Source: a virus
IMG/VR virus record: IMGVR_UViG_3300025325_000055
Location: 1 to 41,844 of that record
Length of the DNA: 41,844 nucleotides
Reading direction: 5' to 3' (one strand)
The position numbers were made by a program, and so were the translations under genes. The stretch's first letter is position 1. Each line of letters begins with the position of its first letter. Positions 10,816 to 40,157 of the stretch are shown here, one piece after another. The notes under the pieces were generated by a model. It was not told the DNA's origin. It made no database searches and saw nothing but the letters and a program-made list of their open reading frames with translations.

Positions 10816-12405
10816 CTAGTCCTCTCCATATACGTAGAATCTACCCAAGGCGTAGAGTGCTGCGATCTCAGCATCAGACAGGACTCTGCTGAATGCCAAG
10901 GCAGGTCCTAGCTTGGCATTTGTAGTTACGAGACCGCTCCCCCCTCCCCATGTGGGTTGAGCAGTTATGGCACTGATGAGAGTGGCGATCGCAACCTTGG
11001 ACATCGCAGCACCATTAAGACTGAGACCAAGGCCATTGACATCCCAGCCAACAACCAAGAAGGCGTAGTCATTGTTCGTCGGTGTGTCACCAGCTGTCCT
11101 AGTCACTGTCACACCACTACGCGTATACACCGCAGTCCATAGATTGCTAGCACTATCCCAATACAAGCTGATAGTGTTACTGCCGTCTTGGCGCCAGTCG
11201 AAGACCAGCGCTCCATTGGATGGTTCCACTGCCCCAAATCGAGCCCAGACAGCGATACACCCGGCCTGCGAGTCCAACGCCAACAGACCACCAGTCATGT
11301 AGCCAGAAGCTGCTGGGAGCCACATTGAGGTGTAGGTCCACGGATGGCTTGTTACCGCAGGGAATGTGCCAGCGCCGGTCTCGGCTAGTTGAGCTGTCAC
11401 GTCGGCGCTTACTGCCTGATCGTCATCCCCCTCCCACAAGAACGTATTGATCTTGGATTCGTAGTCTGGACGTATGGTCCACGTGATGTTGAGCACACTA
11501 CCTATCTGCTTCGTAAAGGCAGGTGTCAGCTCTGCCCGGGCGAGACCTGTCCCTGCCGGTTTGAAGGTTCGCAGGTTATCGATGCGAACAGTGACGGGGT
11601 GAGTCTTCGTGACAGATAGCTCGAAGCGAACGATGGCGGTCTTGTCCGGGCTACCGGTGATTGTGGCCGCTGTCAGATCTAGATCGAAGTAGTTCCAACC
11701 ATTCACCAAGCCGGAAGCTGCCACCGTCCATGCCCACTGGTGCTGTCCGGTCGTGATGCTGGACGATAGCTGTATGGCAATATTCCCAGAGAGCTTGGTC
11801 TTGTCATCGACATAGAACCAGACCTGCAGAGCCGTGTCAGCCAAGGAGATATCGGCAGAGAGCGTGGTCTTCTTGAAAGTCAGATCAGCTGGTCCAGCTC
11901 CTGAGCTAGCAGACTCCAAGCTGCCCGTCCCCTGCATCCTGTCCGAAGTCTCCACAGATAAGGTTTGACCGGCGCCGGTGCTCCAACCAGTTATTGCATC
12001 GAGAGCGTCAAGGATTACAACAACTGCATCGGCACTGAAGAGCATGACCTCTTCAATATCCCCTGCGATCTCAGCCGCACCAAACACTGCTCGGTACCGA
12101 GTCCCATCGGACAGTACCTGTGGGGACGTAGCCAGATCCTTCCGGAAGAACTCGTCCACCATCTCAGTCACTGTCTTCTGGTTCACGCTGGCAGCCTCTT
12201 GGCCGGCACCGATAGCCAAGAAGCCAGGCAGTACGGAACTCTGCCCTGCCAGCCACTTGGATATCTCGTTGCGGAAGGCGTATGTCACCACGTTGTCTAG
12301 CACTCTGGTCGTACGTAGAATCAGTCCCCCCGCAGTAACCTCCTCCAGCTCCAGTTCTATGGTGCCGCGGGGACGAGAGAGAGCTATCTGATCCGTTATT
12401 GCCAT
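10816..12405 (-). CDS. Tail-tip or fibre protein with laminin-G-like domains
   Basis: I choose the ATG at 12405, preceded by GAGAAGGTG, over the extended frame to 12468, which would overlap the previous gene more. The product has 529 residues. The first 130 look like a tail-attached domain (TYAFRNEISKWLAG, MVDEFFRKDLA). Residues about 135-290 form a first beta-sandwich (SLESASS, VWFYVDD, GWNYFDLDL, VRIDNLR), and about 360-525 a second (AVWARFG, ISLYWDSASNLW, AFLVVGWDVNGLGLSLNG) ending in FSRVLSDAEIAALYALG, a typical laminin-G domain end. It probably binds polysaccharide at the cell surface. Confidence 0.7.
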   Translation of the reverse strand: MAITDQIALSRPRGTIELELEEVTAGGLILRTTRVLDNVVTYAFRNEISKWLAGQSSVLPGFLAIGAGQEAASVNQKTVTEMVDEFFRKDLATSPQVLSDGTRYRAVFGAAEIAGDIEEVMLFSADAVVVILDALDAITGWSTGAGQTLSVETSDRMQGTGSLESASSGAGPADLTFKKTTLSADISLADTALQVWFYVDDKTKLSGNIAIQLSSSITTGQHQWAWTVAASGLVNGWNYFDLDLTAATITGSPDKTAIVRFELSVTKTHPVTVRIDNLRTFKPAGTGLARAELTPAFTKQIGSVLNITWTIRPDYESKINTFLWEGDDDQAVSADVTAQLAETGAGTFPAVTSHPWTYTSMWLPAASGYMTGGLLALDSQAGCIAVWARFGAVEPSNGALVFDWRQDGSNTISLYWDSASNLWTAVYTRSGVTVTRTAGDTPTNNDYAFLVVGWDVNGLGLSLNGAAMSKVAIATLISAITAQPTWGGGSGLVTTNAKLGPALAFSRVLSDAEIAALYALGRFYVYGED

Positions 12406-12647
12406 TTGGCACCTTCTCCCCAGAGAACGTTGTTGGAGACTCTTGACCATGTAGTTACAGCACCCCACTTCGGCGTCAAGGAGGGCTGGGTGTCATCCAT
12501 CACAACCCTGTCAGCTGTAGGCGGCTGCTCTGGCAAGTCCCTAATACGCACAGTCGTGGAGTGAGGAGAGCGTTTGAAGGTCCGGTTATGACGATCAAAC
12601 AGCTCTCTCAGAATTCTTGTCAGTTCGGAAGTACCACGAAGAGACAT
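12396..12647 (-). CDS. Small tail-module protein of unknown function
   Basis: This 83-residue frame starts with ATG 12647 behind AGGTGA and overlaps the next gene by ten bases. The N-terminal 30 residues are a basic amphipathic helix (LTRILRELFDRHNRTFKR); the rest is polar and ends in a Trp-rich tail. The tight fit between hub and fibre genes, with overlaps on one side and a seven-base gap on the other, argues for a real structural or assembly gene. I do not recognise the family. Confidence 0.65.
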   Translation of the reverse strand: MSLRGTSELTRILRELFDRHNRTFKRSPHSTTVRIRDLPEQPPTADRVVMDDTQPSLTPKWGAVTTWSRVSNNVLWGEGAKWQ

Positions 12648-24747: not shown

Positions 24748-27714
24748 CTAGAGGCTAGAGAATGTGGCTCCGACCAACCCCCTGTGGTCAATTGGGTTCG
24801 CGCCCCAGAAGTGGCGGACCTTGTACGTGATGCGGTCGTTGGTGAACATCGCCCCGACCAGCTCCGTGCTCTGGTCCTGTGCGAAGATCTCGGGCTCCTC
24901 GCGGCCGTTCAGGAAGCCGACCTCGATCATCGGGATCTCGGTAGGACCTGCGGCCAGAACCCAGATGTTCTTCGGTGCTTGGGTGTCACCACCAGCGTTA
25001 CCACGATCGGCTGCTGTCTCCCAGTACGGGATGATGAGCAGCTCGAACATGCCACGGTGGATGTTCACCTCATGGCTTCCTGCGCCCACCTTCGTCTCGG
25101 AATTGAGCAGCGCGAGCCCCATGGCCCTGTTCGTCGGAGCGACGACCAGAGTCTTCGGAGAGCTCATGATGAAGCTGTGTGCGACAGCTCCAGAGTACGG
25201 CGCCGAAGCGCTGACCGCTGCCTGCTGGATCTGGAAGCGCATGAAGGCATCGGACAGGTTGGCATCGTTAAGGGCCACGATCGCGGACAGGATGCTGTGC
25301 GTGTCGGTCACGATGTTGCCCGGGGAGCGAGCAGCTGCCACATCGAACAGCCTGTCAGCGCCACCGCTGGTCAGGTAGGTGGACTCGGCAGGGTTGTCGA
25401 TGAGGAAGTCGAACACCGTGATGTAGATGGTACCGGCAGCCGCACGACCCAGCTTCTGGGGAAGCGCACGGAACTTGCCGATGTCATCGTTGATGATCAT
25501 CTCCAGGGTCAGGCTGGCCTGGCCGTGTGCCTTGACCGGCTGGTAGATGGCCTCCTCTTCCGGCAGCGCTGCACCGGTGAGGTCGGCGTAGGTGATGTCT
25601 TGGTTGGACGCACCCACACCACTCTCACGCTTCAGCAGGTAGAACTCGCCGAGGCGCTCCCTCTTCTGCTCACGCAGGTCGGAGGTAGGCGCCACAGTTG
25701 CGATCTTGCGCCAGTCCTGGAGCATCGGGTAGCGGTACTCTATGAGAGCCCGGCGCGTGATGCTATCGCCGAGGATCTTGCCGAAGTCGGAGGTCTTCAT
25801 CGCCGTGGCCTCTACGACCCGATCCAAGCCGCGGTTGGACACGCCGGAGTCGTAGCGCCCAGCGGACTCGAGGACTTCGTATCCGGTCAGGTCGAAGACG
25901 TGCGATCCAGTGATGACGCAGAAGGCTTCCTTCAGCGAGCGGAAGGCCTTGACGCCATCGACGTCCTCGCCCGCCAGAAGCCCGTCCATGGCCTTGACGT
26001 AGCGATCCTGTGGGGCGTCTGCCGCAGCAGCCCACGGAACTGTGGAAGGTGGCTGGGCCACCATCACGGCCGCCAGAGCAGCCTGCTGTGCGGTCACCTC
26101 TTCCTCGAGAGCGACTCGCTCGAAGATCTTGCCAGCCCAGCGGGCACGGATCATGTTCGCGATCGGCTCTGGGAGGCGACTCGCAGACAGGATCTCGTCC
26201 AGAGCGCGTGCGGACTGCTCGACAGCCCGCTCCTCTTGGATAGTTCGGAGAGACTCAGTGAGTTGCTGGATGCTCTCCGCAGAGGCAGCCTCAACTACTG
26301 GTGCCGGATCAGCAGCCGGTGCCGGACTTGGGTCCGGTGGCGCCGGTGCCGGGTCGGGAGCAGGTGCTGGGTCAGGTACTGGATCCGCTACCGGATCCGG
26401 GCTTGGGTCCCCTGCCGAGCTCGCGGCCGCCTCGCCGCCTGGTGCGAAGTGCGAGGCAAGAGCTTCTCTCACCTCAGGGCGCTCCGCGACAGCAGCTATG
26501 AACTCTTCAGGGGAAGCATTTTCTAGAGACATTAGAGCTTCCACCTCCTTGGTGTTTTTGTCCGAGGCGACCACTCGGTCTATTGAGCCGCCGGCGCTAG
26601 CCTCGGTGATAGCGTCAACGGAGTGGACCCTAACTAATTCGGAGATCTCTCGTACAAGGACGCCATCGATATACTTCGGCGAGTGCCGAGCACTCACGTT
26701 AACCGACAGCTGTACGAGATCCGGCTTGCCACGTGTGTGTGCTTCACGGACTATATCCGCTACTGGACCCTCAAGAAGGTGCATCTTGCCCTTCAGAGAG
26801 CCCCCACCCATCCCGTTCGGTACCCAGTAGACACCTTCGTACCAACCTACAATGTCCCTGACGGATCGCTCCGGTCGCTCTGCCATCTCCGTCTTGGTCG
26901 GGTGGTCGGCAAAGGCCCTGACCCCCTCGAACATCCTGGTGTTGCGCTCCAGCGTGTCCGGGCGCCAGTAGTAGCGGTTCTTGCTGCTACCGGACTGGAT
27001 AATGGTTGCCAAGTAGACGTTGGGCTCGGAGGGGAAGGCCTCTTCGATGATACCCATCGCCTCGGAGACAAAGGTGACTCCCTCGTCTGTCTCAACAGGA
27101 GCAGACTCATCTACGTGCTCATAAGGACAAGTGCCGTCCTCACATTCTCCGTGTCGATGATCCTCGGCTATACCCCCACGAGCAGCCTCGTGAGTCTTAC
27201 CTTGGCTCATCATCCCACGCAGGTGATTGCGAATCTGCGTGGCTTTGGCAGAGGAGATCTTGCCGCCACCCTTGAGCTTGATCTGATTCACCCGGGAGAG
27301 GGCCGACAGAAGATGCGGCATATCCACCTTGCCCTTGGCATCCTTGTAGGGCAGGTGTCGAAGACTACGTGGAGTTGTCTTTCCGTCCTTGTCCTTCTTG
27401 CCGCCGGGCTCGACAAAGGCAAAGCAGCTGTCAGGAAGGTTGTTGATCTCCTCGGCGCTCCACTCTGCCTCGACGATTACATCCGAAGAGCCGGTGCCAT
27501 TCCCATTGCTAGAGCTAATTGTCCCGATTGCAGATTGAAGGAGATCCGTTGCCTCTTCGGTCTTGCCCTCCTTGACAGCGATGAAGGCACTGCCAATGAT
27601 CTTCAGCGCCTCCTCCTCAACATCTTGGTTCAGAGCATCGGTAAGAAGCGCAGAAGCATAGTCGGTGTCGCCACTTCTTAGGCTGGTCAGAACGGACTCT
27701 AGTACGTCGCGCAT
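24748..27714 (-). CDS. Fused prohead protease, scaffold and major capsid protein
   Basis: This 988-residue polyprotein begins at ATG 27714 behind GGAGA. Residues 1-70 are helical. Residues 92-168 match the DUF6582-like pattern (SLRHLPYKDAKGKVD, LSALSRVNQIKL, AKATQIRNHLRGM). About 230-385 is a serine protease of the prohead type (FADHPTKTEMAERPERSV with candidate His271, and LVQLSVNVSA with candidate Ser337). About 435-475 is a Pro-Asp-Ala linker, 478-555 a coiled-coil scaffold, and about 560-988 a capsid domain resembling Mu gpT/HK97-fold proteins (RYPMLQDWRKIATV, then GQASLTLEMIINDDIGKF quoted as LTLEMIINDDIGKF). Self-cleavage should release the capsid subunit. The third catalytic residue is not identified. 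Confidence 0.8.
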   Translation of the reverse strand: MRDVLESVLTSLRSGDTDYASALLTDALNQDVEEEALKIIGSAFIAVKEGKTEEATDLLQSAIGTISSSNGNGTGSSDVIVEAEWSAEEINNLPDSCFAFVEPGGKKDKDGKTTPRSLRHLPYKDAKGKVDMPHLLSALSRVNQIKLKGGGKISSAKATQIRNHLRGMMSQGKTHEAARGGIAEDHRHGECEDGTCPYEHVDESAPVETDEGVTFVSEAMGIIEEAFPSEPNVYLATIIQSGSSKNRYYWRPDTLERNTRMFEGVRAFADHPTKTEMAERPERSVRDIVGWYEGVYWVPNGMGGGSLKGKMHLLEGPVADIVREAHTRGKPDLVQLSVNVSARHSPKYIDGVLVREISELVRVHSVDAITEASAGGSIDRVVASDKNTKEVEALMSLENASPEEFIAAVAERPEVREALASHFAPGGEAAASSAGDPSPDPVADPVPDPAPAPDPAPAPPDPSPAPAADPAPVVEAASAESIQQLTESLRTIQEERAVEQSARALDEILSASRLPEPIANMIRARWAGKIFERVALEEEVTAQQAALAAVMVAQPPSTVPWAAAADAPQDRYVKAMDGLLAGEDVDGVKAFRSLKEAFCVITGSHVFDLTGYEVLESAGRYDSGVSNRGLDRVVEATAMKTSDFGKILGDSITRRALIEYRYPMLQDWRKIATVAPTSDLREQKRERLGEFYLLKRESGVGASNQDITYADLTGAALPEEEAIYQPVKAHGQASLTLEMIINDDIGKFRALPQKLGRAAAGTIYITVFDFLIDNPAESTYLTSGGADRLFDVAAARSPGNIVTDTHSILSAIVALNDANLSDAFMRFQIQQAAVSASAPYSGAVAHSFIMSSPKTLVVAPTNRAMGLALLNSETKVGAGSHEVNIHRGMFELLIIPYWETAADRGNAGGDTQAPKNIWVLAAGPTEIPMIEVGFLNGREEPEIFAQDQSTELVGAMFTNDRITYKVRHFWGANPIDHRGLVGATFSSL

Positions 27715-27775: not shown

Positions 27776-28741
27776 TTACTGCTTGCGCAGAGTGCGTAGG
27801 AGGCCTGTATGGGTCATGGAGCGGGACAGAGTACGGCCGGTTCTACGGTCTACCGCGTACCACTCGCTGCCCCTGCGGACAATGACTTCCCTTGTGTCGG
27901 CGCCGGAGAGCGGGACAACTAAGAAAGGAAACTTGGCGCTCTTCATGATCTCTGCCAACGTGGCCGGTCCAACCGCCAGCCGCGCCTCCATGTCTTCTAT
28001 CCCGACCCTCTCCTCAGTCTGTCCTATCCTCTCCACCAGCAGCTTCTCATCAGAGCTCGCCAAGACAATGCTGTCGATGGTGATAGGAACCGGATCCAGC
28101 CGGCTCACTGGACTAGCAGCTTCGGGATCAAGATAGGCCAAGGTCATGTGCGGGGTGAACCCATGCTCTTTGGAGATAGGGAAGCCGGCGAGCTCCAGAT
28201 CCTCCACTAGGGACTGGCGAAACTCTTCTAGGCGAGGAGCATCGACAGAGGCGTAGAGCACATCCTTGCCATCACTAGTAGGACTTCCCGTAAAGCGGCC
28301 AATGCCGCCAACAGTGCCCTCAAGGGGTCCCCCGTCTTGGCAGGCTCTGCGCATGCAGTCTCCCACCTGTTCCCGATCCAGAGCTTCTGCATCAGGGAAG
28401 AAACCCAAGGTGAGATGGAGCTCCTCAGGCGCTTCTCCCCCCTCAACAGCCAGTTGCTTGGCAACATCCTCAGGTGGGTACCAAGCGATCATCGCTCCCT
28501 TGCCATTGTAGGCTTCCTTGGTCCCAGAGGCAGCCTCGAAGCTACCACCGTGCTCTTTACAGTGGCTACGGGCTGCAGCCTCGGACCAAGAGTCAGTGGG
28601 ATAGCGATAGGCTTGGATCTTGGAGCCTCCCTTGCCAAAACCATAGATTCGATGCGGCCGCGTCTTGTTGCTTCGAGCGAAGCGCTGAAACGACGAGGGA
28701 TCCTCGAGTCTACATGCGTGCTCGTTGGGCATAGGAGACAT
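27776..28741 (-). CDS. Two-histidine phosphoesterase-domain protein in the head module
   Basis: This 321-residue protein has three parts. Residues about 28-72 form a short basic domain (RIYGFGKGGSKIQAYRY, SWSEAAARSHCKEHGGSF) that I know from the ends of phage head proteins. Residues about 82-245 are a 2H phosphoesterase/LigT-like domain with both HxTx motifs, HLTL at 109-112 and HMTL at 198-201, spaced normally. The third part (about 250-321) is small and basic. 2H enzymes cut or ligate 2'-5' linked RNA or cyclic nucleotides, and some phages use them against host defence (Acb1). The substrate here is unknown, and packaging inside the head is possible. Confidence 0.75.
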   Translation of the reverse strand: MSPMPNEHACRLEDPSSFQRFARSNKTRPHRIYGFGKGGSKIQAYRYPTDSWSEAAARSHCKEHGGSFEAASGTKEAYNGKGAMIAWYPPEDVAKQLAVEGGEAPEELHLTLGFFPDAEALDREQVGDCMRRACQDGGPLEGTVGGIGRFTGSPTSDGKDVLYASVDAPRLEEFRQSLVEDLELAGFPISKEHGFTPHMTLAYLDPEAASPVSRLDPVPITIDSIVLASSDEKLLVERIGQTEERVGIEDMEARLAVGPATLAEIMKSAKFPFLVVPLSGADTREVIVRRGSEWYAVDRRTGRTLSRSMTHTGLLRTLRKQ

Positions 28742-28782: not shown

Positions 28783-30102
28783 TTACTGCCGTCGGCCGCG
28801 GCGTATCGGTGTAGGCTCTGGCCCCTGTCCGGGCTGCCAGAGCTTGACTGGAGCAGCCTCCACGCCAAGGCCCTTGGCCAGCTCCTGCAGAAAGGATCTC
28901 CAGTAGGTAGTGATTACAGCGCGGACGTCGAACTTGGTGCCGAACTTGACAGCATCGATAGACAGACGCCTAGCCTTCTTCTCGTCGTGGAGCTCGTCGT
29001 AGGCCGTACACAGAGCATCAAGAAGTCCGGGCTGGTGGGTGACATGACCACAACTTTCGCAGGCCGAGTCCGAGCCCAACGGGTTGGCGAGGTACCACTG
29101 GGTATTCGTTGGCACAGCCACAGGTGCCAAGGGCGGTACTAGCCAGCCTACACCGACGTTCTCCGTCTGGGCCGTAGCCGCGTTGGCCACCACGGGAATG
29201 CCAGATGCTTGGGCCTCAATCAGAGGAACGTTGAATCCCTCGCCGGCGGACGGTGCAAAGTAGACATCCATCGCGTTGTAGGCCATCGCCATCTGTTGAT
29301 CAGAGATCCCCATCCTATCCATGTACGGATCCAGCACGATAACGTACTTGGCAAAATCGAGACCGTACATATCGCAGAGGGCGAAGACGTCAGCTGATTC
29401 GGGACCAACGTAGGGAAGAGCGTGCAGATACAGCCTAGCATCGGGGTGGATCTTAACAAACTCAGAGAAGGCTTTGATCGCCTCTGGGAAGCCCTTCCTT
29501 ACCACGGGGGAGTTCTGGGTGTTGGCTGCTACCATACCCACCAAGAAGCACTCCTCTGGGAAGCCAATCATCTTCTTGAACTGCTTCTTGTTCCCCAGCG
29601 GTCGGTAGATGGAGGTGTCTATACAGTGGGGGATGTAGGTGATGGGAATCTGGGGCAGCCTCTCCTCCATCGTCTTCTTCCCAAACTGGGACATGGCGAT
29701 GATCTGGTGGGCATTGACGAGGCGGGCTTGGGTCTGCCGGGAGAGTGGGTAGCCATCAATGGGCACGATAGGCACCCACTTGAAGTTACCACCGCCATTG
29801 GCAGAGGCGAATACCTGAGGCATTGGCCAAACATCCATCAGGCTGATGCAGACGTCGAATCCCATAGCTCTCATGTGAGCCGCGATCAGAGCATCTGATC
29901 CCTTCTCCACACCAAAGCCAGAGATGTGATCGACACCGTTGAAGTTGATTGTTCCCCACTCAAACCCGCCACTGCAAGCAACAGCTATACGCTCAACCTC
30001 GGGTAGTTGTTGGAGAGCCTTGACAGTGTAGTTCGTCTGCCGGCCGTAGCCAGACGCTCTCCACATGGGCGCCGCAGACAGCCAGAGTACCTTGAGTCCC
30101 AT
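28783..30102 (-). CDS. GT4-like glycosyltransferase
   Basis: I start at ATG 30102, which shares a base with the TGA of the preceding gene and follows GAGGTGG. The 439-residue protein has a GT-B fold pattern: an N-terminal half with SAAPMWRASGYGRQTNY (a glycine-rich acceptor loop) and IIAMSQFGKKTMEE, and a C-terminal half with FYMD-like regions and SAGEGFNVPLIEAQASGIPVVA (quoted as GEGFNVPLIEAQASGIPV), the nucleotide-sugar binding motif of GT4 enzymes, including the E-x7-E pair. A CxxC pair (CESCGH) sits in a late insertion. It is the last gene of the sugar cassette and probably adds a hexose-type sugar to a growing chain. Confidence 0.8.
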   Translation of the reverse strand: MGLKVLWLSAAPMWRASGYGRQTNYTVKALQQLPEVERIAVACSGGFEWGTINFNGVDHISGFGVEKGSDALIAAHMRAMGFDVCISLMDVWPMPQVFASANGGGNFKWVPIVPIDGYPLSRQTQARLVNAHQIIAMSQFGKKTMEERLPQIPITYIPHCIDTSIYRPLGNKKQFKKMIGFPEECFLVGMVAANTQNSPVVRKGFPEAIKAFSEFVKIHPDARLYLHALPYVGPESADVFALCDMYGLDFAKYVIVLDPYMDRMGISDQQMAMAYNAMDVYFAPSAGEGFNVPLIEAQASGIPVVANAATAQTENVGVGWLVPPLAPVAVPTNTQWYLANPLGSDSACESCGHVTHQPGLLDALCTAYDELHDEKKARRLSIDAVKFGTKFDVRAVITTYWRSFLQELAKGLGVEAAPVKLWQPGQGPEPTPIRRGRRQ

Positions 30103-31664
30103 CACACCACCTCTACGATCTTGTCACAGATATAGTCGACGTCGGGGATGTCCATACGGGTAGACATTGGCAGAAGAAGACCATTGTAGTGCCAAGCAGC
30201 CGCATTAGGAAGCTCCCGCTCGTCACCTTGACCAAACTGCCAGTTGAGAGGAGGCCACACCGGCCGAGTTTCGACACCGGCCATAGCTAGAGCATCCTCT
30301 ACTCTACCTCGGGAGGCTGAATCAGGGAAACGCACCAAGGCAAGGCTGGCAGAGCCATTGTCTATCTTTTGCACGACAGCTGTGTTCCACAGACGCTGCC
30401 GGTAGCGCTCCCAGATCCGCTCTCTCTTGAGTACCCTATCCGCGAGGCTGTCCAGCTGGCTGAGACCCATAGCTGCTTGGACATCTGTCATTCGCCCGTT
30501 CAGACCGGCCGTGAAGGCCCAGTAACGTTGATGCGCAACAGACTCTCCATGCTGGCGCAGGCTCTGCACCAAAGAGACGAGACTCTCCGGACCAATAACA
30601 GCCCCACCCTCGATCGTGGTAATGGTCTTGGCTGCATGGAAAGAGAGGGCAGCACGCAAGGACCCTCCCTTATCTTCTGGGCGAAGACAAAGATCTACCG
30701 CCTGAGCAGCATCCTCCCAAACAAATCTACCGCTTTCGTAGTGCTTCTGAAGCCAGCCCCGATCAACATGGGCACCACCAATATGAACGGCTAGCAGACC
30801 AGCATCCTCGTAGCGAGTAAGCAGGAAGTCAGCCTGCTCCCTGTCCATCAGGGCAGTGTCCAGATCCACATCGACATAGAGCGGCTCCAGCCCAAGGAAG
30901 AGAAGTGGCGCCGCGGTAGCTGCGAAGCTCAGCGCAGGGAGCACCACGCGCTTGCATCCTTGCATCTTGGCTACCTGTGCCATGAGGAGGAGGGCCATCG
31001 TCCCAGAGGAAACGCAGACTGCTCGGTTCTCAAACATGTGCTGGAGCCTATCCTCCAGCTCTCTCACCTTGCGACCTTGGGTGAGCCAACCAGAGGAGAG
31101 AACCTTGATGCCCGCCGCCGTGCCCTCACCCCAGTCTGGCTCGCACCACGCTATGTGCTTGCTAGGGCTGTCCTCCTCACGCAGGAAGCAAGACATCGAG
31201 AGAACATCCCGGTACTCTCCTACAGAAGTGATCTCCTCGTCCGTGAATACCCCCTCAACGGTAAACCCCAGCTTATCGTAGAGAGCAATGGCAGCATGGT
31301 TCTCACTGTGAACCGAGAGCCAAATCTTGTGCAGACTGAGAGAGCGGGCATGCTCCATCATCCTCCGGCACAGATCCTCTGCCCAGCCTTGCCGACGCGA
31401 GTTGGGACGCACGGCAACACCCAGCCTGGCTACGTGCTTCTTCGTCTCCCCGGGGAAGTACGTGAGGTGACCGAAAGCAAGAACACTGCGGTGGTCGTCG
31501 GTGAGCAGAAAGCAATCGCCAGGCCCTCCCCCGAGACGATCGTCCTCAAGGAAGGAGAAATGTTCTCGGTCCACAGCAGAGAGACTGTTTCTGAACTCCT
31601 TGAGCTGGGACAGCCACTGATGCCTGCAAACGGAGAAAGAGCAGACAGTTATCTCGGGTGCCAC
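30102..31664 (-). CDS. Fusion of GNAT acetyltransferase and DegT-type sugar aminotransferase
   Basis: This 520-residue protein starts at GTG 31664 behind GGAGGTGA. Residues 1-165 are a GNAT N-acetyltransferase (LGVAVRPNSRRQGWAEDL is the acetyl-CoA loop; NHAAIALYDKLGFTVEGV the following helix-strand). Residues about 185-520 are a PLP-dependent DegT/DnrJ/EryC1/StrS aminotransferase: SSGWLTQGRKVRELE opening, CVSSGTMALLL, VWEDAAQAVD with Asp318, and SFHAAKTITTIEGG with the PLP lysine at 346. The KTITTxEGG motif resembles perosamine synthetases. One polypeptide could therefore aminate a 4-keto sugar and acylate the new amine. It overlaps the genes on both sides. Confidence 0.85.
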   Translation of the reverse strand: MAPEITVCSFSVCRHQWLSQLKEFRNSLSAVDREHFSFLEDDRLGGGPGDCFLLTDDHRSVLAFGHLTYFPGETKKHVARLGVAVRPNSRRQGWAEDLCRRMMEHARSLSLHKIWLSVHSENHAAIALYDKLGFTVEGVFTDEEITSVGEYRDVLSMSCFLREEDSPSKHIAWCEPDWGEGTAAGIKVLSSGWLTQGRKVRELEDRLQHMFENRAVCVSSGTMALLLMAQVAKMQGCKRVVLPALSFAATAAPLLFLGLEPLYVDVDLDTALMDREQADFLLTRYEDAGLLAVHIGGAHVDRGWLQKHYESGRFVWEDAAQAVDLCLRPEDKGGSLRAALSFHAAKTITTIEGGAVIGPESLVSLVQSLRQHGESVAHQRYWAFTAGLNGRMTDVQAAMGLSQLDSLADRVLKRERIWERYRQRLWNTAVVQKIDNGSASLALVRFPDSASRGRVEDALAMAGVETRPVWPPLNWQFGQGDERELPNAAAWHYNGLLLPMSTRMDIPDVDYICDKIVEVV

Positions 31665-32392
31665 ACTATCACCTCCGGATCTACCCAGATCATATGGCCG
31701 CGGGCGGTAGCCATCTTACACAAGCCCACGATCGCCTCGTCTGATGTGAACCTGACACCTTCCCGAAGCGTGGCTGCTGGTATGAGCAGACAAGTGCCGG
31801 CAGAGTCTACTTCGAAGGGATTATCGAGGGAGACGCAGGGGTGATAGGGAGGCTCCCAGTTGAAGCAGCCAGGACCATACGTGCCGCCCTGCCTGTTGAC
31901 TTGCTCATACCCTTGGCGGAAGGCCCAGACATCGTAGAAGGTATCTGAGTCATGGACGAGAACGAGCGGGGCAGTGATGTCGCCATCTGAGAATATATCC
32001 TTGGTCTCCAGAAGATTCTGCAGGAGCTCAGATCCCCAGATCAGGTCAGACTCCAGCCAGAGGAAGTAGTCGCATGGTCCGTCGAGAAGCGCCATGTTGA
32101 TAGCCCTGTTCGCTACCACCGAGACCCGGGCCAGCCTCTCCGGTGTGATCTCCGCATAGCCAGAGGGGGCACGGGGAGCATCGAACTTGGCTACCTCCAC
32201 ATACGGCAACTCCGCAGCCATCTGCTGGAGACGCTGGAAGGTGTCATCGTCGCTGTTGCCCTCAACTAGACAGAAGCGCAGGTACTCGGCAGGGTAGTCT
32301 AGAGCCTTGGCCTGCTCGTAGTAGCGCCACAAGTCTCCACGCTTGGATGAGTTCCAGAACATGCTGCCGATGCAGACAGTGGGTGGTCTCAA
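31649..32392 (-). CDS. GT2/Anp1-like (GT-A fold) glycosyltransferase
   Basis: The frame starts at TTG 32392, which overlaps the previous TGA and is preceded by GGGAGGT at good spacing. The 247-residue protein begins with a strand-helix pattern (VCIGSMFWNSSKR, LRFCLVEGNSDDDTF) and carries LWLESDLIW near residue 112. This acidic turn takes the place of the DxD metal site in GT-A enzymes of the Anp1/GT62 or GT2 type. A region with HPCVSLDNPFEVDSAGTCLL follows, then a final IWVDPEVIVWHPR. It probably transfers one sugar in the cassette; donor and acceptor cannot be read from sequence. Confidence 0.7.
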   Translation of the reverse strand: MRPPTVCIGSMFWNSSKRGDLWRYYEQAKALDYPAEYLRFCLVEGNSDDDTFQRLQQMAAELPYVEVAKFDAPRAPSGYAEITPERLARVSVVANRAINMALLDGPCDYFLWLESDLIWGSELLQNLLETKDIFSDGDITAPLVLVHDSDTFYDVWAFRQGYEQVNRQGGTYGPGCFNWEPPYHPCVSLDNPFEVDSAGTCLLIPAATLREGVRFTSDEAIVGLCKMATARGHMIWVDPEVIVWHPR

Positions 32393-33453
32393 GTCAGATA
32401 CCTCCCGAAGAATCTACGCCAATCCTCTGTTACTACCTCACGGCCGAAGATCTCTGTGGCTCTCTTTCTGCCAGCTTCACCTATCCTCCGAGCAAGATCC
32501 TGATCATCAAGGAGCCGGCTAATGTCTGATTCGAGCTCACCCATGTCATCAGAGCAGAAGCCGTTGACACCATCCTCGATCAGCTCTGGAAGTTCGTAGG
32601 TGCCCAGTCCTCTCCATCCACCACGCTGCGGACCCACAGCAACTACCGGTGTACCGGTCATCCATGCTTCACGAAAAGTACCGGTATACGGCGCCGGCTT
32701 GGCATTGGCATCGAAGTAGACTCGGGCCTTCCGATAGTCGCGGCGGAGACGGTTGTACGTCCTTTGGCCTACAGGATAGAAACGACCATCACCATCATTG
32801 CCTGGACCAACAACGCGTACGGTGAATCTATCTGCAAGCTGAAGCACTTCCTCACACTGTCGATTGTCTCTGTTGATGCAGCGGCTTACGACAAGGACGT
32901 GCTTACCTGTTCCATCCCAACCCTTCCACTCGTTTGGATCCGTAGACCAGCGGATTACGGCATCTGTACCTATGTTGTGTGGGATGGTTCTCTCGGTCAC
33001 AGAACTTCGTACTACCTTCAACCCGCGCTGTCGGAAAAACCGCAGGTTGTAGTCCTGCCAAGGCATGCCTTCTCCGGAGCGCCAGATGATGAGCGGCCGC
33101 TTACTGTTCTCGGTCATGCTCGGCCAGTAGCGCACAACCCAGTTGCTGACTAGCAGAACAACAACGACGTCGAAGCCTGCGAAGAAGTCTGGTGGCAGGG
33201 CCAGCGGGGCACCATACTCGTCTAGACCTTTGTCCTGCAGGTACTCCTCTCGCGGCTCCCTGAGCCCTGGTATCCTCCGCATGATGTCTTGGAGGTAGGA
33301 AAACTCCTCTGGCTCCGCGATCTCTGGGCGGTGGATCAGCCAAGGCTGCCCGAGGCGCTTGAAGGGAGAGGCTACCTCGAAACCAAGATCCGTAAACAGG
33401 CGGTAATCGTCGTAGTGGGCAGCGGGGTTGCCGTAGAGCATTAGGAGCTTCAT
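32389..33453 (-). CDS. GT-B glycosyltransferase, paralogue B
   Basis: I choose ATG 33453, which overlaps the TGA of the methyltransferase gene (ATGA), over an upstream GTG at 33468. The 354-residue protein has a GT-B layout with C-terminal motifs PYTGTFREAWMTGTPVVAV, YELPELIEDGVNGFCSDD and a final RRIGEAGRKRATEIFGRE. This is the usual donor-binding half of GT4-type enzymes. The same blocks occur in the protein at 34052-35107 (also xxDAVIRxxxDPxxWxGW), so the two arose by duplication and then diverged, mainly in the N-terminal acceptor half. They may add successive sugars. Confidence 0.75.
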   Translation of the reverse strand: MKLLMLYGNPAAHYDDYRLFTDLGFEVASPFKRLGQPWLIHRPEIAEPEEFSYLQDIMRRIPGLREPREEYLQDKGLDEYGAPLALPPDFFAGFDVVVVLLVSNWVVRYWPSMTENSKRPLIIWRSGEGMPWQDYNLRFFRQRGLKVVRSSVTERTIPHNIGTDAVIRWSTDPNEWKGWDGTGKHVLVVSRCINRDNRQCEEVLQLADRFTVRVVGPGNDGDGRFYPVGQRTYNRLRRDYRKARVYFDANAKPAPYTGTFREAWMTGTPVVAVGPQRGGWRGLGTYELPELIEDGVNGFCSDDMGELESDISRLLDDQDLARRIGEAGRKRATEIFGREVVTEDWRRFFGRYLT

Positions 33454-34055
33454 TTGGCTGCCAACCACAGGTAGTCATCGTGGTGGGGAGTACCCTCGTC
33501 AAAGGCATAGCGAACCACCCGTGTACGATAGCCGTACTCTTCAAGCAGGGCTCTAACAGCTGGTACATTCCCGTGAGTCTCTATGAGCAGCTCGGGGTGG
33601 TGCGTAGCGAGAAGGGATCGAGCACCTTGCAGAATGCGCAGCTCCGCTCCTTCTGTATCCATCTTCACAAACGACACGTGACCATCGAAGGAAAGAACAT
33701 CTAGCGGAACAGCGGCCGTGTAGAAATTGCCGATGGGAGCCCCTCTCTCCACTCCTGGCAACACCGTGTCACTGGTCAATCCTGGACCATATAGGTACGT
33801 GTACAACCTCAGATAGCCATACTCAGACGAGAGGGCAAAGTTGCAGCGAATCACGTTGGCCTTCTGAGATGTGTTCTTGGTCAGCTGAACGAAGGCATCG
33901 GGATTGGGCTCAAACGCCCATACCTGCCGGTGAGTCCGAGCGAGACCAAGAGTGTAGATGCCCAAGCAGGCACCGATGTCCAGAGCAATGTCCCCCTTCT
34001 CAGGAAGCTCGGGAGCACACCAAGGCTCGTAGGGAATAACCTCATCGTAGCTCAT
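33450..34055 (-). CDS. FkbM-family SAM-dependent methyltransferase
   Basis: The ATG at 34055 overlaps the TGA of the previous gene (ATGA), giving 201 residues; the extension to 34085 lies inside the neighbour. Motif I, ALDIGACLGIYTLGLA, is followed by VWAFEPNPDAF (the acidic end of strand 2) and by VSFVKMDTEGAELRILQGA, the hallmark of FkbM enzymes. These usually methylate a sugar hydroxyl. The protein ends soon after the SAM fold, shorter than many relatives. In this cassette it may cap a glycan with an O-methyl group, as seen in O-antigens. Coupled with both flanking glycosyltransferase genes. Confidence 0.85.
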   Translation of the reverse strand: MSYDEVIPYEPWCAPELPEKGDIALDIGACLGIYTLGLARTHRQVWAFEPNPDAFVQLTKNTSQKANVIRCNFALSSEYGYLRLYTYLYGPGLTSDTVLPGVERGAPIGNFYTAAVPLDVLSFDGHVSFVKMDTEGAELRILQGARSLLATHHPELLIETHGNVPAVRALLEEYGYRTRVVRYAFDEGTPHHDDYLWLAAK

Positions 34056-35107
34056 GGCGCAAAGTGCTCGAAGAACTTCTGCCACTGCTGCTGGATCTTC
34101 TCCCTGCCGAAGACCTCAATGGCTCTTGCCCTACCAGCAGCACCAACCTTGGCAGCCAAGTCTGGGTCCTCTAGGAGACGTACAGCCGCACCTCGAAGCT
34201 TATTGAGATCATCAGACCAGAAGCCAGTGATGCCATCCTCAATCAACGTGTGTAGTTCATAGGTGTCCATACCTGGGCGATTTCCGTACTTAGGACCGAG
34301 GGCAACTACTGGTGTACCGGTCATCCATGCCTCGCGGAAGGTGCCAGTGTAGGGAGAGGGCTGTGTGTTGACCGCAAAGAAGACTCGAGCTCTACGATAG
34401 AGACGCTGCAGCTCTTCGAAAGAGACCGCGCCGCGGTTGTAGGCTAGACCTTCGTTGCCAGGACCATAGAGCACTCTGGGTAGGCCGTTGGTGGCCAGCT
34501 GGAACGCGTGCTGATTACATTCGACCGGACGGCCGGCCATCTTCGAACAGACACAGAGAACATGGCAGTCCTCGCCCGTCCAGCCATGCCAGTCTTCCGG
34601 ATCGTTGTAGCAGCGGATTACAGCATCGGCGCCTAGGTTAGCGCGACCGCCAATACCCAGCTCTGTGGGAGAGCAACGTACTATGAGAAGACCCTCGTCG
34701 CGTAGCGGCTGCAGCATCTTCTCGACAAAGTCTGCACTCTGCCCGTTGCAGCGCCAGACCACCTTCTTGCCTCGCATTGCCTTCCAATTGCCAGTAAGCC
34801 AATCGACAACCCCCAAGATGATAACCATGTCGAAGGGCTCGAAGACCTGTCTTGGCAAGGCATTCTGAGGATGGCGACGAGCCAAAGCTACGACATCTGC
34901 ATGACCGTTGTCCGGGAGCGGGGGACGGTATCCACCCTCTACCTCGGTCCACCAGCTCGGTCCCCAGCTCGGATGGTCCATGGGCTTTGGCCTCTCAGGA
35001 TCGCGGTAGACACCAAAGGGAGAGCAGACATCGACACCGATCTCCCTGAAGAGTTTCAGGTCCTCGTACTCGTTGATCCAGTGGCCGCCCAAGTAGAGGA
35101 TCTTCAT
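34052..35107 (-). CDS. GT-B glycosyltransferase, paralogue A
   Basis: This 351-residue protein starts at ATG 35107, overlapping the stop of the dehydratase gene (ATGA). The N-terminus is a strand followed by a loop (MKILYLGGHWINEYEDLKLF, quoted as KILYLGGHWINEYEDL). The C-terminal donor-binding region has PYTGTFREAWMTGTPVVAL, YELHTLIEDGITGFWSDD and ARAIEVFGREKIQQQW. It shares these blocks with the protein at 32389-33453. GT4-type donor binding fits a GDP- or UDP-sugar. Being directly coupled to the GDP-mannose dehydratase, it is a good candidate to use the deoxy sugar made by the cassette. Confidence 0.75.
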   Translation of the reverse strand: MKILYLGGHWINEYEDLKLFREIGVDVCSPFGVYRDPERPKPMDHPSWGPSWWTEVEGGYRPPLPDNGHADVVALARRHPQNALPRQVFEPFDMVIILGVVDWLTGNWKAMRGKKVVWRCNGQSADFVEKMLQPLRDEGLLIVRCSPTELGIGGRANLGADAVIRCYNDPEDWHGWTGEDCHVLCVCSKMAGRPVECNQHAFQLATNGLPRVLYGPGNEGLAYNRGAVSFEELQRLYRRARVFFAVNTQPSPYTGTFREAWMTGTPVVALGPKYGNRPGMDTYELHTLIEDGITGFWSDDLNKLRGAAVRLLEDPDLAAKVGAAGRARAIEVFGREKIQQQWQKFFEHFAP

Positions 35108-36129
35108 ACCGGCAAGTACTCGCCGCGGAGCTCGGCCTCTGCTATCTGCTGCTCGCTTCTTCCATGAAGACGATCTAGGTCAGCAGAGATCATGTGCCAG
35201 ACAAGCTCGGGTAGGAAAACCTCGGTCTGCCAGTCTAACTCAGAGGACAGGAGCGCAGGATCGGCTATTAGAGTGTCCGAGGGACGCATCAGTGATGACT
35301 CGGTCTTGACATGATCCCTGTAGTCCTTACCCACCAAGTTGAATGCTATTCGAAGCAGGTCCGCAATGGTATGACCGTGGCCAGTTCCAATAACCACATC
35401 CCGAGGTTCATCCGGCCAAAGAAGGAGACACATAGCCCGGGCGAAGTCGCCAGCGTAGCCCCAGTCTCGTACAGCTGACAGATCACCCAGCACCAGCTCT
35501 CCCTTGCCCTCCTTAGCAACACGAGCCGCGGCCATAGTTATCTTCCTCGTGACATAGCCAGAGGGTCTCCACACACTCTCGTGGTTGAAGAGGATTCCGT
35601 TCACACAGTAAAGGCCGTAGCGCTCTCGGTAGATGCGAACCATGTCGTGGCAAGTGGCCTTAATCAGACCATAGAAACTGCTGGGAACCCGTGGTGTCCG
35701 CTCTGATTGTGGCGGTGGCTCACTGCCGAAGATTGCTGCCGAGGAGGCATAGAACAGCCTTGCCTTGGGATTAACCTCCCGCATCCATTCCAGAACCAGG
35801 AGGATGCTGTCAACCGAGGACTGGAGAGAGAAGATGGGATGGCTCTCGGCCGCAGCAGGGGAACTGACAGCAGCTAAGGCGTAGATCTCGTCCGGGTTCA
35901 CCCCTACCAATGTGCGACGCAGCGAGATAGGATCTGCTACATCCGTAGGAAGAATGTGTAGGTTGGGAGCGCGTATGGAGGTTAGACTAGAGTCTTCGAG
36001 CGGATGTACGGTCCCCCATACCTCATACCCCTGCCCGTGCAGGTGATTTGCGAGGTACGGCCCGTCTTGACCTCCCGCTCCCGTTATCAGAGCGCAACGC
36101 TGGGACGACTGTGTCCTCTTCCCCCTCAA
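35104..36129 (-). CDS. gmd: GDP-mannose 4,6-dehydratase-like SDR enzyme
   Basis: The enzyme should convert GDP-D-mannose to GDP-4-keto-6-deoxymannose with bound NADP. The best start is TTG 36129, seven bases after AAGGAG, giving 341 residues; the frame is open to 36159. Visible are the nucleotide loop TGAGGQDG (residues 16-23), the FYASSAAIFG strand carrying the catalytic Ser/Thr, QSE with the catalytic glutamate, and YGLIK with Tyr153 and Lys157. GDLSAVRDWGYAGDFARAM is a strong GMD-type signature. The first 107 bases overlap the 3' end of the portal gene in another frame. No fucose synthase or rhamnose reductase gene follows. Confidence 0.85.
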   Translation of the reverse strand: MRGKRTQSSQRCALITGAGGQDGPYLANHLHGQGYEVWGTVHPLEDSSLTSIRAPNLHILPTDVADPISLRRTLVGVNPDEIYALAAVSSPAAAESHPIFSLQSSVDSILLVLEWMREVNPKARLFYASSAAIFGSEPPPQSERTPRVPSSFYGLIKATCHDMVRIYRERYGLYCVNGILFNHESVWRPSGYVTRKITMAAARVAKEGKGELVLGDLSAVRDWGYAGDFARAMCLLLWPDEPRDVVIGTGHGHTIADLLRIAFNLVGKDYRDHVKTESSLMRPSDTLIADPALLSSELDWQTEVFLPELVWHMISADLDRLHGRSEQQIAEAELRGEYLPV

Positions 36130-37429
36130 ATTCCATCTCCTTCTTGTCTGGTATCTCAAAGCCTAGGGAAGAGAGATAAATGTCCATGATGGCCCGAACT
36201 TCTTCTTTGCTGTAGATCTGTGCGACCTCTAGACCGGTGAAGAACTGACCGACTCGTGCCAACGCTCCTCCTGTGCGTTGGACATCCCTGATCGCAATAC
36301 GCGGCTTGATCACCTTGAACGATGTGTCTACATCCGAAGACAGCCGACCGCTAATGATCGCTTGGTCGATGACGAACTGGAAGACATCCGTAACGATGTT
36401 GCTGATCTCATCGGCCCGGCTGGAGAAGGTCTTGTAGAGAAGATCGATCTGCTCTGCTAGAGCAGTACGAGCTGCGGCGATGATACCTGTGGCCGTTGGT
36501 GGGATGCCGAAGCCGAACAGGATGTAGCCAAGCAAGTTAGCACCCTCAGCAGAGGCATCATCTGCCTGCGTATCAGGACGGACAGAGTCCCATTTGACCG
36601 CATCGTTATGGGCTCGTATGCTGCCCGGACCGAGCGGGTTCTTCTGCTGCGCTTGCAGGAACTTGACGATCTCAGCCTCGCCGGCGCCGGTGATCGTAAC
36701 ATCCCAGTTGTAGGTATTCCTCAGCTCAGCGTTGCGAGCCCGGGCATACATGAAGCGATCCAGCTGATCGATGAAGTCGTTGAGGGCAAACAGGTCAGAG
36801 ACACCACGAGTGCCACCGCTGACTCTGTTCACAGCCCAGAAGAAGACATCGCCAATGCGGCGCAGGAAGGTGGGACTAGCTGGATCCCTGTCCAGAGCGA
36901 TGACCCGCATCGTCACGTCATCCACGTACGGACCACCGCGGACGACAATGCTGCGCATCTTGTTGTTGTGGAACGGCTCGGCCATCGTGCTCTTAATGAT
37001 CTGCGGGTCGATCTTGCCCATGAGAGTGTCGCCCCGGCTGACCACAATGGGCATCACCAGCTCTCCGTCCTGGGAGAGATCTAGGATGTACTGTGGTAGG
37101 TGTCGCTTCCAGTCGTTCCAGGGGTCCTTCCAGTGTCGATCTATGACATCCTGCACACCTGGATCCTTGGCTCGGATCATGAAGCCTACATCTCCCCCCA
37201 TGATGTAGTCCCGCATGAGTTCGAGGAGACGGTGACCGACCGCGGTACGCAGATAGTTGAAGCGACCGATCTTGGACTGCATGATCTGATCAAGCGGGGG
37301 AAGATCCTGCTTGTTCTGCATGCCGTACGGGCGCCAGGCTGCCTCGTCGCTGTCCATACCAACAACTGCCGGTAGAGCCTCTCGGATATCTTCCGGCGCC
37401 TCTGCTGTGGACGAGCGTAGACGTGGCAT
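36023..37429 (-). CDS. Portal protein
   Basis: This 468-residue protein forms the dodecameric ring through which DNA enters the head. It has the expected alpha-rich wing and clip regions (GRFNYLRTAVGHRLLELM, VQDVIDRHWKDPWNDWKRHLPQ quoted as WKDPWNDWKRHLPQ) and a later stem and crown part (LGYILFGFGIPPTATGIIAAARTAL, quoted as GYILFGFGIPPTATG, then LLYKTFSSRADEI). The GxPPxxxG turn is typical of portals. Start ATG 37429 lacks a strong ribosome site but lies four bases from the preceding stop. The last about 35 residues are Ser/Arg-rich and overlap the dehydratase gene, so this tail may be recent. Confidence 0.8.
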   Translation of the reverse strand: MPRLRSSTAEAPEDIREALPAVVGMDSDEAAWRPYGMQNKQDLPPLDQIMQSKIGRFNYLRTAVGHRLLELMRDYIMGGDVGFMIRAKDPGVQDVIDRHWKDPWNDWKRHLPQYILDLSQDGELVMPIVVSRGDTLMGKIDPQIIKSTMAEPFHNNKMRSIVVRGGPYVDDVTMRVIALDRDPASPTFLRRIGDVFFWAVNRVSGGTRGVSDLFALNDFIDQLDRFMYARARNAELRNTYNWDVTITGAGEAEIVKFLQAQQKNPLGPGSIRAHNDAVKWDSVRPDTQADDASAEGANLLGYILFGFGIPPTATGIIAAARTALAEQIDLLYKTFSSRADEISNIVTDVFQFVIDQAIISGRLSSDVDTSFKVIKPRIAIRDVQRTGGALARVGQFFTGLEVAQIYSKEEVRAIMDIYLSSLGFEIPDKKEMEFEGEEDTVVPALRSDNGSGRSRRAVPRKSPARAGV

Positions 37430-38265: not shown

Positions 38266-38292
38266 AATAGACTAAAACTGGGCAGACGTCAA
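38264..38292 (-). promoter_or_regulatory. Candidate promoter at the end of the terminase gene
   Basis: On the minus strand TTGACG (38292-38287) and TATTGT (38269-38264) are 17 bases apart, the ideal spacing for a sigma70-type promoter; five and four of six bases match consensus. The minus-35 overlaps the terminase stop codon. Transcription would start near 38257 and give a leader of about 38 bases before the next gene. Confidence 0.5.
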
Positions 38293-40157
38293 CCCACTAA
38301 GAAGTGTCTCCTAATCCGCTCGAAGTCGCGGCCGCGGACATCTATGAGCTGGCGCCGGCTACATGCCCCGCAAACCGTACCCTCGCCACGTCTATAGAGA
38401 TTGTCTTCCGTTGCACCACACAGAGCGCAGGCAGGACCCTGCACTGCAGGAGCCAAGTAGATCTCCTTACCCGTTCCGTCCTCACCTTCCTTCTCCATTA
38501 GCCAAGCACCCTCGCTGGGATCGTAGACCATGTCTATGGGGGAGGCTCCGTAGGCTGCGGCCTTGAGCATGAAGTCGAGAGCGTCGAGGCAGTCATCGTG
38601 GTCGGTGGTGCGATCGCCGCGGAAGGTGGACCATTCGTAGAAGAGCGGGTCGAGAGAGGATACCGGCACGAGAAGGCCGTCATCCTGCTTGGTAGCAGCC
38701 AGACGGACACGGTGCATAGTGAAGTAGGTCGACATGTGGACAAAGCGTTGGGTCTTGCCGCCACTGGTGATGACCGGGTTGATGTTGAAGAACGTCTTCT
38801 CCTGCTGCTTCTTGACGAGGAAGGACTGGGCTGCGTTGGCTTCCATGTTGATCAGTGTTGGCTGCCAGCGCCGGGCGTGCATGGATACCATTTCCCAGAG
38901 ACGATCAGGATCAGCCCTCTCCCTGATCATGTCTACCACGTAGACGATGTTCTTGTCAGGATCCTTGAGACCGATACAGATGACAGCGAAGTCAGCCGTA
39001 GCAGAGTTGGACCAGCTCGGGTCCACCCCGAAGTAGACCAAGAACTTCGTAGCCGGCAGCAGAGGCTGGAGCGGATCGTAGCCCGGGATCTCATGGGTGT
39101 CGATGAGGTTCTCGTTGAGCCAAGCCAGCTGCAAGAAGGCCAGCGTGGTGTCGACCGGGTCGTTCTGCATCTGCTCGGCAAACTCGAGTGGCTTAGCCTC
39201 ACGCCAAGCAAGAAGGAACGGAACAGAGAAGCGCTCTGGCCATGCCGACTGCCACTCGTCCTTCTCATCCTTGTACAGAACAGGGAGGAGTAGGTAGCTG
39301 AACTCGTCTTTGTGCCGCTTCGACCACGTCTCCCTGAGTTCGGCATAGAGATCCTTGAAGTGGCGGCGAGTACCGACCACGCACATCTGACCAAGTGAGG
39401 TGTCCTCTACCGGCTCTTCTCCCTCTTCGCCCTGTCCCTCCGGCTCTACTGTTGGCTCCAGCTCCGTGAAGAACCAGGTGGACAGGTGACCGCGCTGAAT
39501 GACGGTAGCGCTGTTCTCCGCATCGACTACGTCGTCGGCGACAACCAGATCAGCCCTACGGCCGGCCACGGCACCACCGGTACCAATGGCGAAGAGAGTG
39601 AGACCTGTAGCAAACTCGGACCTGCCAGAGACAACCTTCTCTGTGTCGTTCCAGCGCTGTGTGCGGGGGGCCGGGATCAGGTTTCCGAAGATTTTGATGT
39701 ACGACTCTCTTGCCATGATCTGCACTACGCTATCCATCATCTCCTTGGCTAGCGACTCGTTCTTGCAGGCGATGATGACACGTATGTCACGGTTACAGCC
39801 AATGCGCCAAGCGACATAGGCCACGGTTATCAGGGTGCTCTTACCACCACCACGGAAAACGTTGACAACAAGCTTTCGCTTCTCCTTGAGCGCGGCGATG
39901 ATCCGATGGTGGACAGGCTGTAGCTTGAGCTTGCGGCCACGTTGGTCCCTGATGACCTCATCAATGAAGGCTTCGAAGCCATCCTCGCTGCGGATGAGAC
40001 GATAGAGATCACCATCCTGCGACGCACCTTCGGCCAGCCCCGTGAGGGGGGCCAAGGCTTGGGAAACCTCTGGTCTGACTTGAGTCACTACGCTGTAACC
40101 TCTGGGTCTAGTATCGGTGAGCCCGTCCTTCGGGGGCAAAATTACCAGCAAAGTCAC
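38289..40157 (-). CDS. terL: Large terminase subunit with C-terminal zinc ribbon
   Basis: This 622-residue DNA-packaging motor has an ATPase with Walker A FRGGGKSTL (101-109) and Walker B LVVADD (204-209), and an RNase H-like nuclease with Asp379 in FGVDPSW, Glu439 in INMEAN and DHDDCLDALDF near 519-529. An acidic insert (about 237-254, GQGEEGEEPVEDTS) lies between strands of the ATPase. After the nuclease there is an added zinc ribbon with cysteines at 577, 580, 596 and 599. The GTG at 40157 is one possible start; a TTG six bases later and a GTG at residue 24 are alternatives. No small terminase gene was identified in the window. Confidence 0.9.
   Translation of the reverse strand: MTLLVILPPKDGLTDTRPRGYSVVTQVRPEVSQALAPLTGLAEGASQDGDLYRLIRSEDGFEAFIDEVIRDQRGRKLKLQPVHHRIIAALKEKRKLVVNVFRGGGKSTLITVAYVAWRIGCNRDIRVIIACKNESLAKEMMDSVVQIMARESYIKIFGNLIPAPRTQRWNDTEKVVSGRSEFATGLTLFAIGTGGAVAGRRADLVVADDVVDAENSATVIQRGHLSTWFFTELEPTVEPEGQGEEGEEPVEDTSLGQMCVVGTRRHFKDLYAELRETWSKRHKDEFSYLLLPVLYKDEKDEWQSAWPERFSVPFLLAWREAKPLEFAEQMQNDPVDTTLAFLQLAWLNENLIDTHEIPGYDPLQPLLPATKFLVYFGVDPSWSNSATADFAVICIGLKDPDKNIVYVVDMIRERADPDRLWEMVSMHARRWQPTLINMEANAAQSFLVKKQQEKTFFNINPVITSGGKTQRFVHMSTYFTMHRVRLAATKQDDGLLVPVSSLDPLFYEWSTFRGDRTTDHDDCLDALDFMLKAAAYGASPIDMVYDPSEGAWLMEKEGEDGTGKEIYLAPAVQGPACALCGATEDNLYRRGEGTVCGACSRRQLIDVRGRDFERIRRHFLVG

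Follow-up and report, generated by a model that had tools for sequence, protein, structure and literature searches.

A stand-alone 2H phosphoesterase gene beside a phage capsid gene: a candidate head cargo enzyme with a head-protease-type N-terminal domain

Introduction

What is a gene for a two-histidine (2H) phosphoesterase doing among the head genes of a phage, directly next to the capsid gene? The question is raised by a 41,844-base IMG/VR virus record, referred to here as the window. The protein could be carried in the virion, act late in the infected cell or serve the head itself, and its substrate could be a signal nucleotide or RNA. Family conservation, gene context, domain architecture and fold comparisons were used to weigh these readings.

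Results

The ORF at positions 27776–28741 (minus strand) encodes a protein of 321 amino acids. It was matched by the Pfam models PF13563 (2_5_RNA_ligase2, E = 4e-12) and PF02834 (LigT_PEase, 1.4e-7), both above their curated cut-offs and confined to amino acids 107–232, and by phrog_14859, named 'RNA ligase', at 2e-20. Based on Pfam, the family alignment and a structure model that is confident across the domain, the 2H phosphoesterase domain was assigned to amino acids 77–250 (27992–28513, minus strand). The C-terminal extension that follows (amino acids 251–321; 27779–27991, minus strand) was modelled with low to middling confidence, and no relative of these 71 residues was found in phages or IMG/VR except in a sister contig (L002, IMGVR_UViG_3300025327_000039), where the DNA of the 2H gene is identical.

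For analysis of conservation, the window protein was aligned with 27 non-redundant IMG/VR members, which are 28–39% identical to it. As the earlier note on this DNA had stated, both HxT motifs are intact, and they are kept in all 28 aligned proteins: H109-L-T111 (28409–28417, minus strand) with His and Thr in 28/28, and H198-M-T200 (28142–28150, minus strand) with His in 28/28 and Thr or Ser in 28/28. The second motif was in the search pattern for many of the members, so its conservation is partly due to selection; the first motif, like the head-protein fusions described below, lay outside the pattern and is hence unselected. The ORF is a member of the 2H phosphoesterase superfamily, with two HxT/S motifs and an internally duplicated fold. 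A chance ORF is ruled out by the presence of both motifs throughout the alignment.

The position given in the earlier note, immediately upstream of the capsid gene, was confirmed. The next gene downstream (24748–27714, minus strand) lies across a gap of 61 bp and encodes a 988-amino acid (putative protease)-capsid protein, which carries a Phage_capsid_4 major capsid domain at its C-terminal end (amino acids 638–981, E = 7.9e-30). It was assigned to PF25209 and phrog_29592, the latter covering large parts of the protein, with a weak match to phrog_15531; amino acids 234–292 weakly match a head maturation protease. The gene looks fused, with a small N-terminal domain (amino acids 75–170), the putative protease (about amino acids 230–400), a linker and the capsid part, and a similar-looking small domain of the 'LPHHK' type is seen in other head proteases (L042, L100). 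Upstream of the 2H gene, the head module ends with a portal protein gene (36023–37429, minus strand; phrog_10963, 2.5e-16), and a terminase gene occupies 38289–40157.

Between the portal gene and the 2H and capsid genes, a seven-gene glycosylation cassette is inserted (28783–36159), comprising glycosyltransferases, an FkbM methyltransferase, a GNAT-DegT aminotransferase fusion and a sugar-nucleotide epimerase/dehydratase. Its products could add sugars to the virion or to a host surface. The window and the sister contig have 12,127 bases in common, with 66 differing positions that all fall within about 770 bases (33037–33808) of glycosyltransferase and FkbM genes, while the remaining 11.3 kb, including the 2H and capsid genes, are identical. 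Going by these sequences, the sugar-gene differences probably reflect local exchange or diversification. Elsewhere in the window, a putative tail or fibre protein (10816–12468) contains a Laminin_G_3/concanavalin-A-like domain.

At least 16 of the 27 sampled IMG/VR relatives are fusions of the 2H domain with a head protein. The partners are portal and/or MuF proteins (L006, L007, L008, L010, L056, L060, L063 and L067), Mu-like I proteases (L057 and L070) and S78 proteases (L059, L065, L071 and L073); in L072 and L076, 2H, S78 protease and HK97-type capsid form a single ORF, in the same order as the genes of the window. Stand-alone 2H genes adjoin head genes in L003 (portal-2H-protease-capsid), L061, L062 and L075. 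The 2H domain of L011 lies inside a long multidomain protein, the contexts of L058 and L066 were assigned to neither the fused nor the stand-alone group, and the jumbo phage L074 is an exception, its 2H not being seen with head genes. A scan of genome contigs gave no more than three loci, of which two are archaeal genes resembling LigT.

With tblastn, the 2H domain was matched to 266–270 phage records, nearly all actinophages, whose annotations range from 'RNA ligase' and 'aldolase class I' to 'head maturation protease', 'portal protein' and hypothetical. Of the isolated phages, 14 were inspected, and each has its 2H close to portal, MuF or protease genes: after the portal and protease genes or their positional equivalent (Salgado, Kovu and Ottawa), between MuF/protease and capsid (Mutzi, Jambalaya and Lilbeanie), inside a gene named protease, MuF fusion or 'portal' (Dexdert, ValentiniPuff, TurkishDelight and TP1604), or up to about five genes past the portal (DalanDe, Hanem, Tonenili and Phrappuccino). 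Both ends of the portal-to-capsid interval are annotated in 8 of these phages; all 8 have the 2H inside it, and the interval makes up 9–18% of the genome. The product over six different genera is ~5e-6, a rough figure, the phages being not fully independent. Non-structural genes are also inserted in 2H-bearing head clusters, namely thymidylate synthase in Tonenili and nucleases in Kovu.

Two further gene neighbourhoods were observed. In Gordonia phage Hanem (L087, 4743–6823), the portal gene is followed by a small gene, the 2H gene and then directly a gene for a VIP2-like ADP-ribosyltransferase, a class for which packaging has been proposed (PMC9503650); the adjacent 2H and VIP2-like genes are candidates for a pair of injected effectors. 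In T4, 57B (Acb1) adjoins ipI, an internal head protein gene (L081, 1092–1911).

The N-terminal part of the window protein (amino acids 7–71; 28529–28723, minus strand) forms a separate domain, labelled here the BRX-like 'EHACRL' head domain, which matches the N-terminal part of the Synechococcus phage S-CBS3 capsid protein. It was found at 33 IMG/VR loci at first pass and at 80 later, and bearers were counted as 72 non-redundant proteins of at least 160 amino acids. The head maturation protease family phrog_80 is matched by 61 of the 72 and Pfam S78 by 48; other bearers include two portal-MuF fusions, two XkdF-type proteins and one Mu-like I protease. Two bearers carry a Capsid_4 domain, and in L129 the N-terminal domain precedes protease-Capsid_4. 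The window protein is the only one of the 72 with a 2H domain. Since the bearers are chiefly head maturation proteases, the domain is read as a module of head assembly proteins, in agreement with the likeness to the ends of head proteins seen in the earlier note. Taken with the fusions, these data mean that each half of the window protein is found, in relatives, N-terminal to a protease-capsid polyprotein.

The predicted structure of amino acids 7–71 (pLDDT 83) is small and beta-rich and contains a single helix. No significant match to this model was obtained with Foldseek, and the best fold match obtained with VIA-align was the BRX domain of RLD2 (Z 3.8), too weak by itself. Pfam BRX (PF08381) was matched by 10 of 28 members of the N-terminal domain family, two of them above the curated cut-off of 24.5 bits (L043, 6001–6216, 33.5 bits; L048, 5850–6068, 28.4 bits) and the others at 12–24 bits, while none of 14 prokaryote control genomes gave a PF08381 match. 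PF08381 gave no score with the copy in the window, so that the BRX link runs through homologues in other phages. For the BRX-nearest subgroup, the best PDB profile match was again the RLD2 BRX domain (E = 0.011; 6l0v/6l0w), and this phage subgroup shares with BRX the motif L-x-x-[IV]-R-F-x4-[FY]-x4-A-x2-W. The phage domain and plant BRX, a domain described as plant-specific (PMC11165835), are probably distant homologues, on evidence that falls short of proof.

The catalytic type was then considered. The best fold match of the 2H model was the D. radiodurans CPDase (5h7e, Z 18.1 over 160 amino acids, rmsd 2.9), with LigT-type enzymes at Z 15–17 and Acb1 at Z 10–11 (10.2); profile searches gave E = 1.3e-8 for 5h7e versus 0.09 for Acb1. 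Likeness to LigT (ThpR) and the D. radiodurans CPDase (5h7e, 4qak and 5ldi; fold Z 15–18) extends to both HxT motifs, and an aromatic residue, Phe114, takes the place of LigT Phe48. LigT Arg130, which coordinates water and the product phosphate (PMC5283653), is by contrast replaced by Tyr203 (28133–28135, minus strand), Tyr in 27/28 members and Phe in 1/28.

With Acb1 (T4 57B; 7t26/7t27), the window protein shares the 2H fold, the HxT/HxT tetrad (Acb1 H44, T46, H113 and T115), a TPHxTLxY second motif and a Tyr at the Tyr203 position, and the family profile aligns with 57B across its second half. The aromatics compared for base stacking were Tyr12, Trp74, Phe107 and Trp147 of Acb1, of which Tyr12 and Trp74 are described as base-stacking residues (PMC9117128). 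The place of Tyr12 is taken by Met84 (Met in 25/28 members) and that of Trp74 by Thr151 or a neighbour, variable across the family and never Trp; Phe107 perhaps corresponds to Phe195, and the C-terminal lid with Trp147 is not recognisable, the region being not alignable. The family thus has a LigT-like body yet is distinct from LigT (at Arg130) and from Acb1 (at Tyr12 and Trp74), and owing to this difference from both the substrate is not readable from the sequence. A specific likeness to Acb1, the phage 2H enzyme named in the earlier note, was not supported, the nearest solved relatives being LigT/CPDase enzymes. Orthology with Acb1 was rejected because of profile, fold and residues, although the enzyme may act on the same substrates.

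Ligation at RNA ends, also considered earlier, would call for a partner enzyme. Neither PF09414 nor PF01139 (RNA_ligase, RtcB) was matched in the window or the sister contig, and RNA ligases were absent from 30 of the 31 2H-bearing records, which may be fragments; the one exception is jumbo phage L074, whose 2H was not seen with head genes. Repair of RNA through ligation is therefore disfavoured. Head-type 2H domains have been described as not in the company of RNA ligases (Iyer et al. 2017, PMC5512222), and the present count extends that observation to this record set.

Discussion

The reading that we favour, at roughly even chances, is that the 2H protein is a head cargo ejected with the DNA, cleaving oligonucleotide signals or RNA of the host. 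A metal-independent 2H phosphodiesterase of the LigT/CPDase fold would be produced as part of head gene expression and most likely enter the procapsid, with the N-terminal BRX-like domain, normally found in head maturation proteases, acting as docking module. Ejected alongside the DNA into a newly infected host, the enzyme would hydrolyse a nucleotide target, for which a short immune-signalling oligonucleotide (2'-5'-/3'-5'-linked or cyclic) is the likeliest candidate, followed by RNA ends or RNA itself. CBASS is a possible target. Packaging, ejection, substrate and benefit are what we infer; head association is likely because of the head-cluster location and the head-type N-terminal domain, and packaging is the natural reading because, in relatives, the 2H domain forms one polypeptide with portal, MuF, protease or capsid proteins. 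Against this reading, no report of a 2H protein in virions was found in PubMed Central, and the pairing of the BRX-like domain with 2H is known from this phage alone. A bolder reading, less likely than not, is that head maturation proteases own a transferable tag for docking in the procapsid, namely the 65-amino acid domain, behind which an enzyme has here been placed as injected counter-defence cargo, and that plant BRX has a phage (prokaryotic) relative.

Rather less likely is that the head-borne enzyme acts on host RNA instead of signal nucleotides, as an RNase or by cleaving tRNA or other RNA ends; variants would be Usb1-like trimming, or opening of 2',3'-cyclic phosphate ends made by defence nucleases. 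Its nearest relatives in fold and sequence are the LigT/RNA 2',3'-cyclic phosphodiesterases, and RNase action or 2'-5'A degradation was favoured by Iyer et al. (2017, PMC5512222), but repair is unlikely with the ligase partner missing from nearly all records, and the LigT Arg that contacts water and product phosphate is replaced by Tyr.

An unlikely alternative is a protein that is not packaged at all. It would work late in the cytoplasm, in counter-defence or tRNA maintenance, its gene would be no more than a passenger of the head operon, and its N-terminal domain would bind protease or scaffold only in passing. Head-cluster position by itself suggests late expression and not packaging, the gene stands alone, and non-structural genes sit in the 2H operons of Tonenili and Kovu, as sugar genes do in the head operon of the window; these points are set against the portal, MuF, protease and capsid fusions in the majority of the sampled relatives and an N-terminal domain of head-protease type.

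A true Acb1-type anti-CBASS nuclease is quite improbable: Tyr203, the TPHxTLxY motif, the alignment with the second half of 57B and the fold match at Z 10.2 are outweighed by the far stronger LigT/CPDase matches and by the absence of Tyr12 and Trp74, with no recognisable Trp147 lid. Head proteins can take on enzymes as structural components, but a degenerate or purely structural domain is very improbable indeed given that the catalytic His and Thr positions are kept in every member despite the low identities.

If the favoured reading is true, the heads of many phages come loaded with an enzyme that cuts nucleotide signals or RNA, so that protection would precede the expression of any phage gene, and the names 'RNA ligase' and 'aldolase class I' are wrong for a large gene family. 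Head-cluster 2H genes are also swallowed into 'portal' or 'protease' names, and for them the 'RNA ligase' label is misleading. The window gene offers a directly testable case, since it stands alone and its candidate packaging tag is compact, and the BRX likeness of that tag would place a 'plant-specific' domain outside plants.

The window protein differs from the LigT/CPDase enzymes in its viral head context and its extra N- and C-terminal regions. One of its closest counterparts among known systems is the head-fused 2H group of Iyer et al. (polyvalent, MuF and portal proteins), in which 2H domains are likewise tied to head proteins without an RNA ligase partner, and packaging and injection were proposed for the 2H-MuF/portal fusions of that group (Iyer et al. 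2017, PMC5512222; 2022, PMC9503650), so that the idea of head cargo is itself not new. What this analysis adds is a 2H gene standing alone with a head-protease domain, the protease and protease-capsid fusions, the check for RNA ligases and the BRX-like domain. Whereas that group comprises fusions to polyvalent, MuF and portal proteins, the 2H of the window is encoded by a gene of its own directly upstream of a protease-capsid gene, and its relatives also show S78 protease and protease-capsid polyprotein fusions. Lying beside the capsid gene and bearing a head-protease domain, the window 2H fits the head-fused or head-encoded group of phage 2H proteins.
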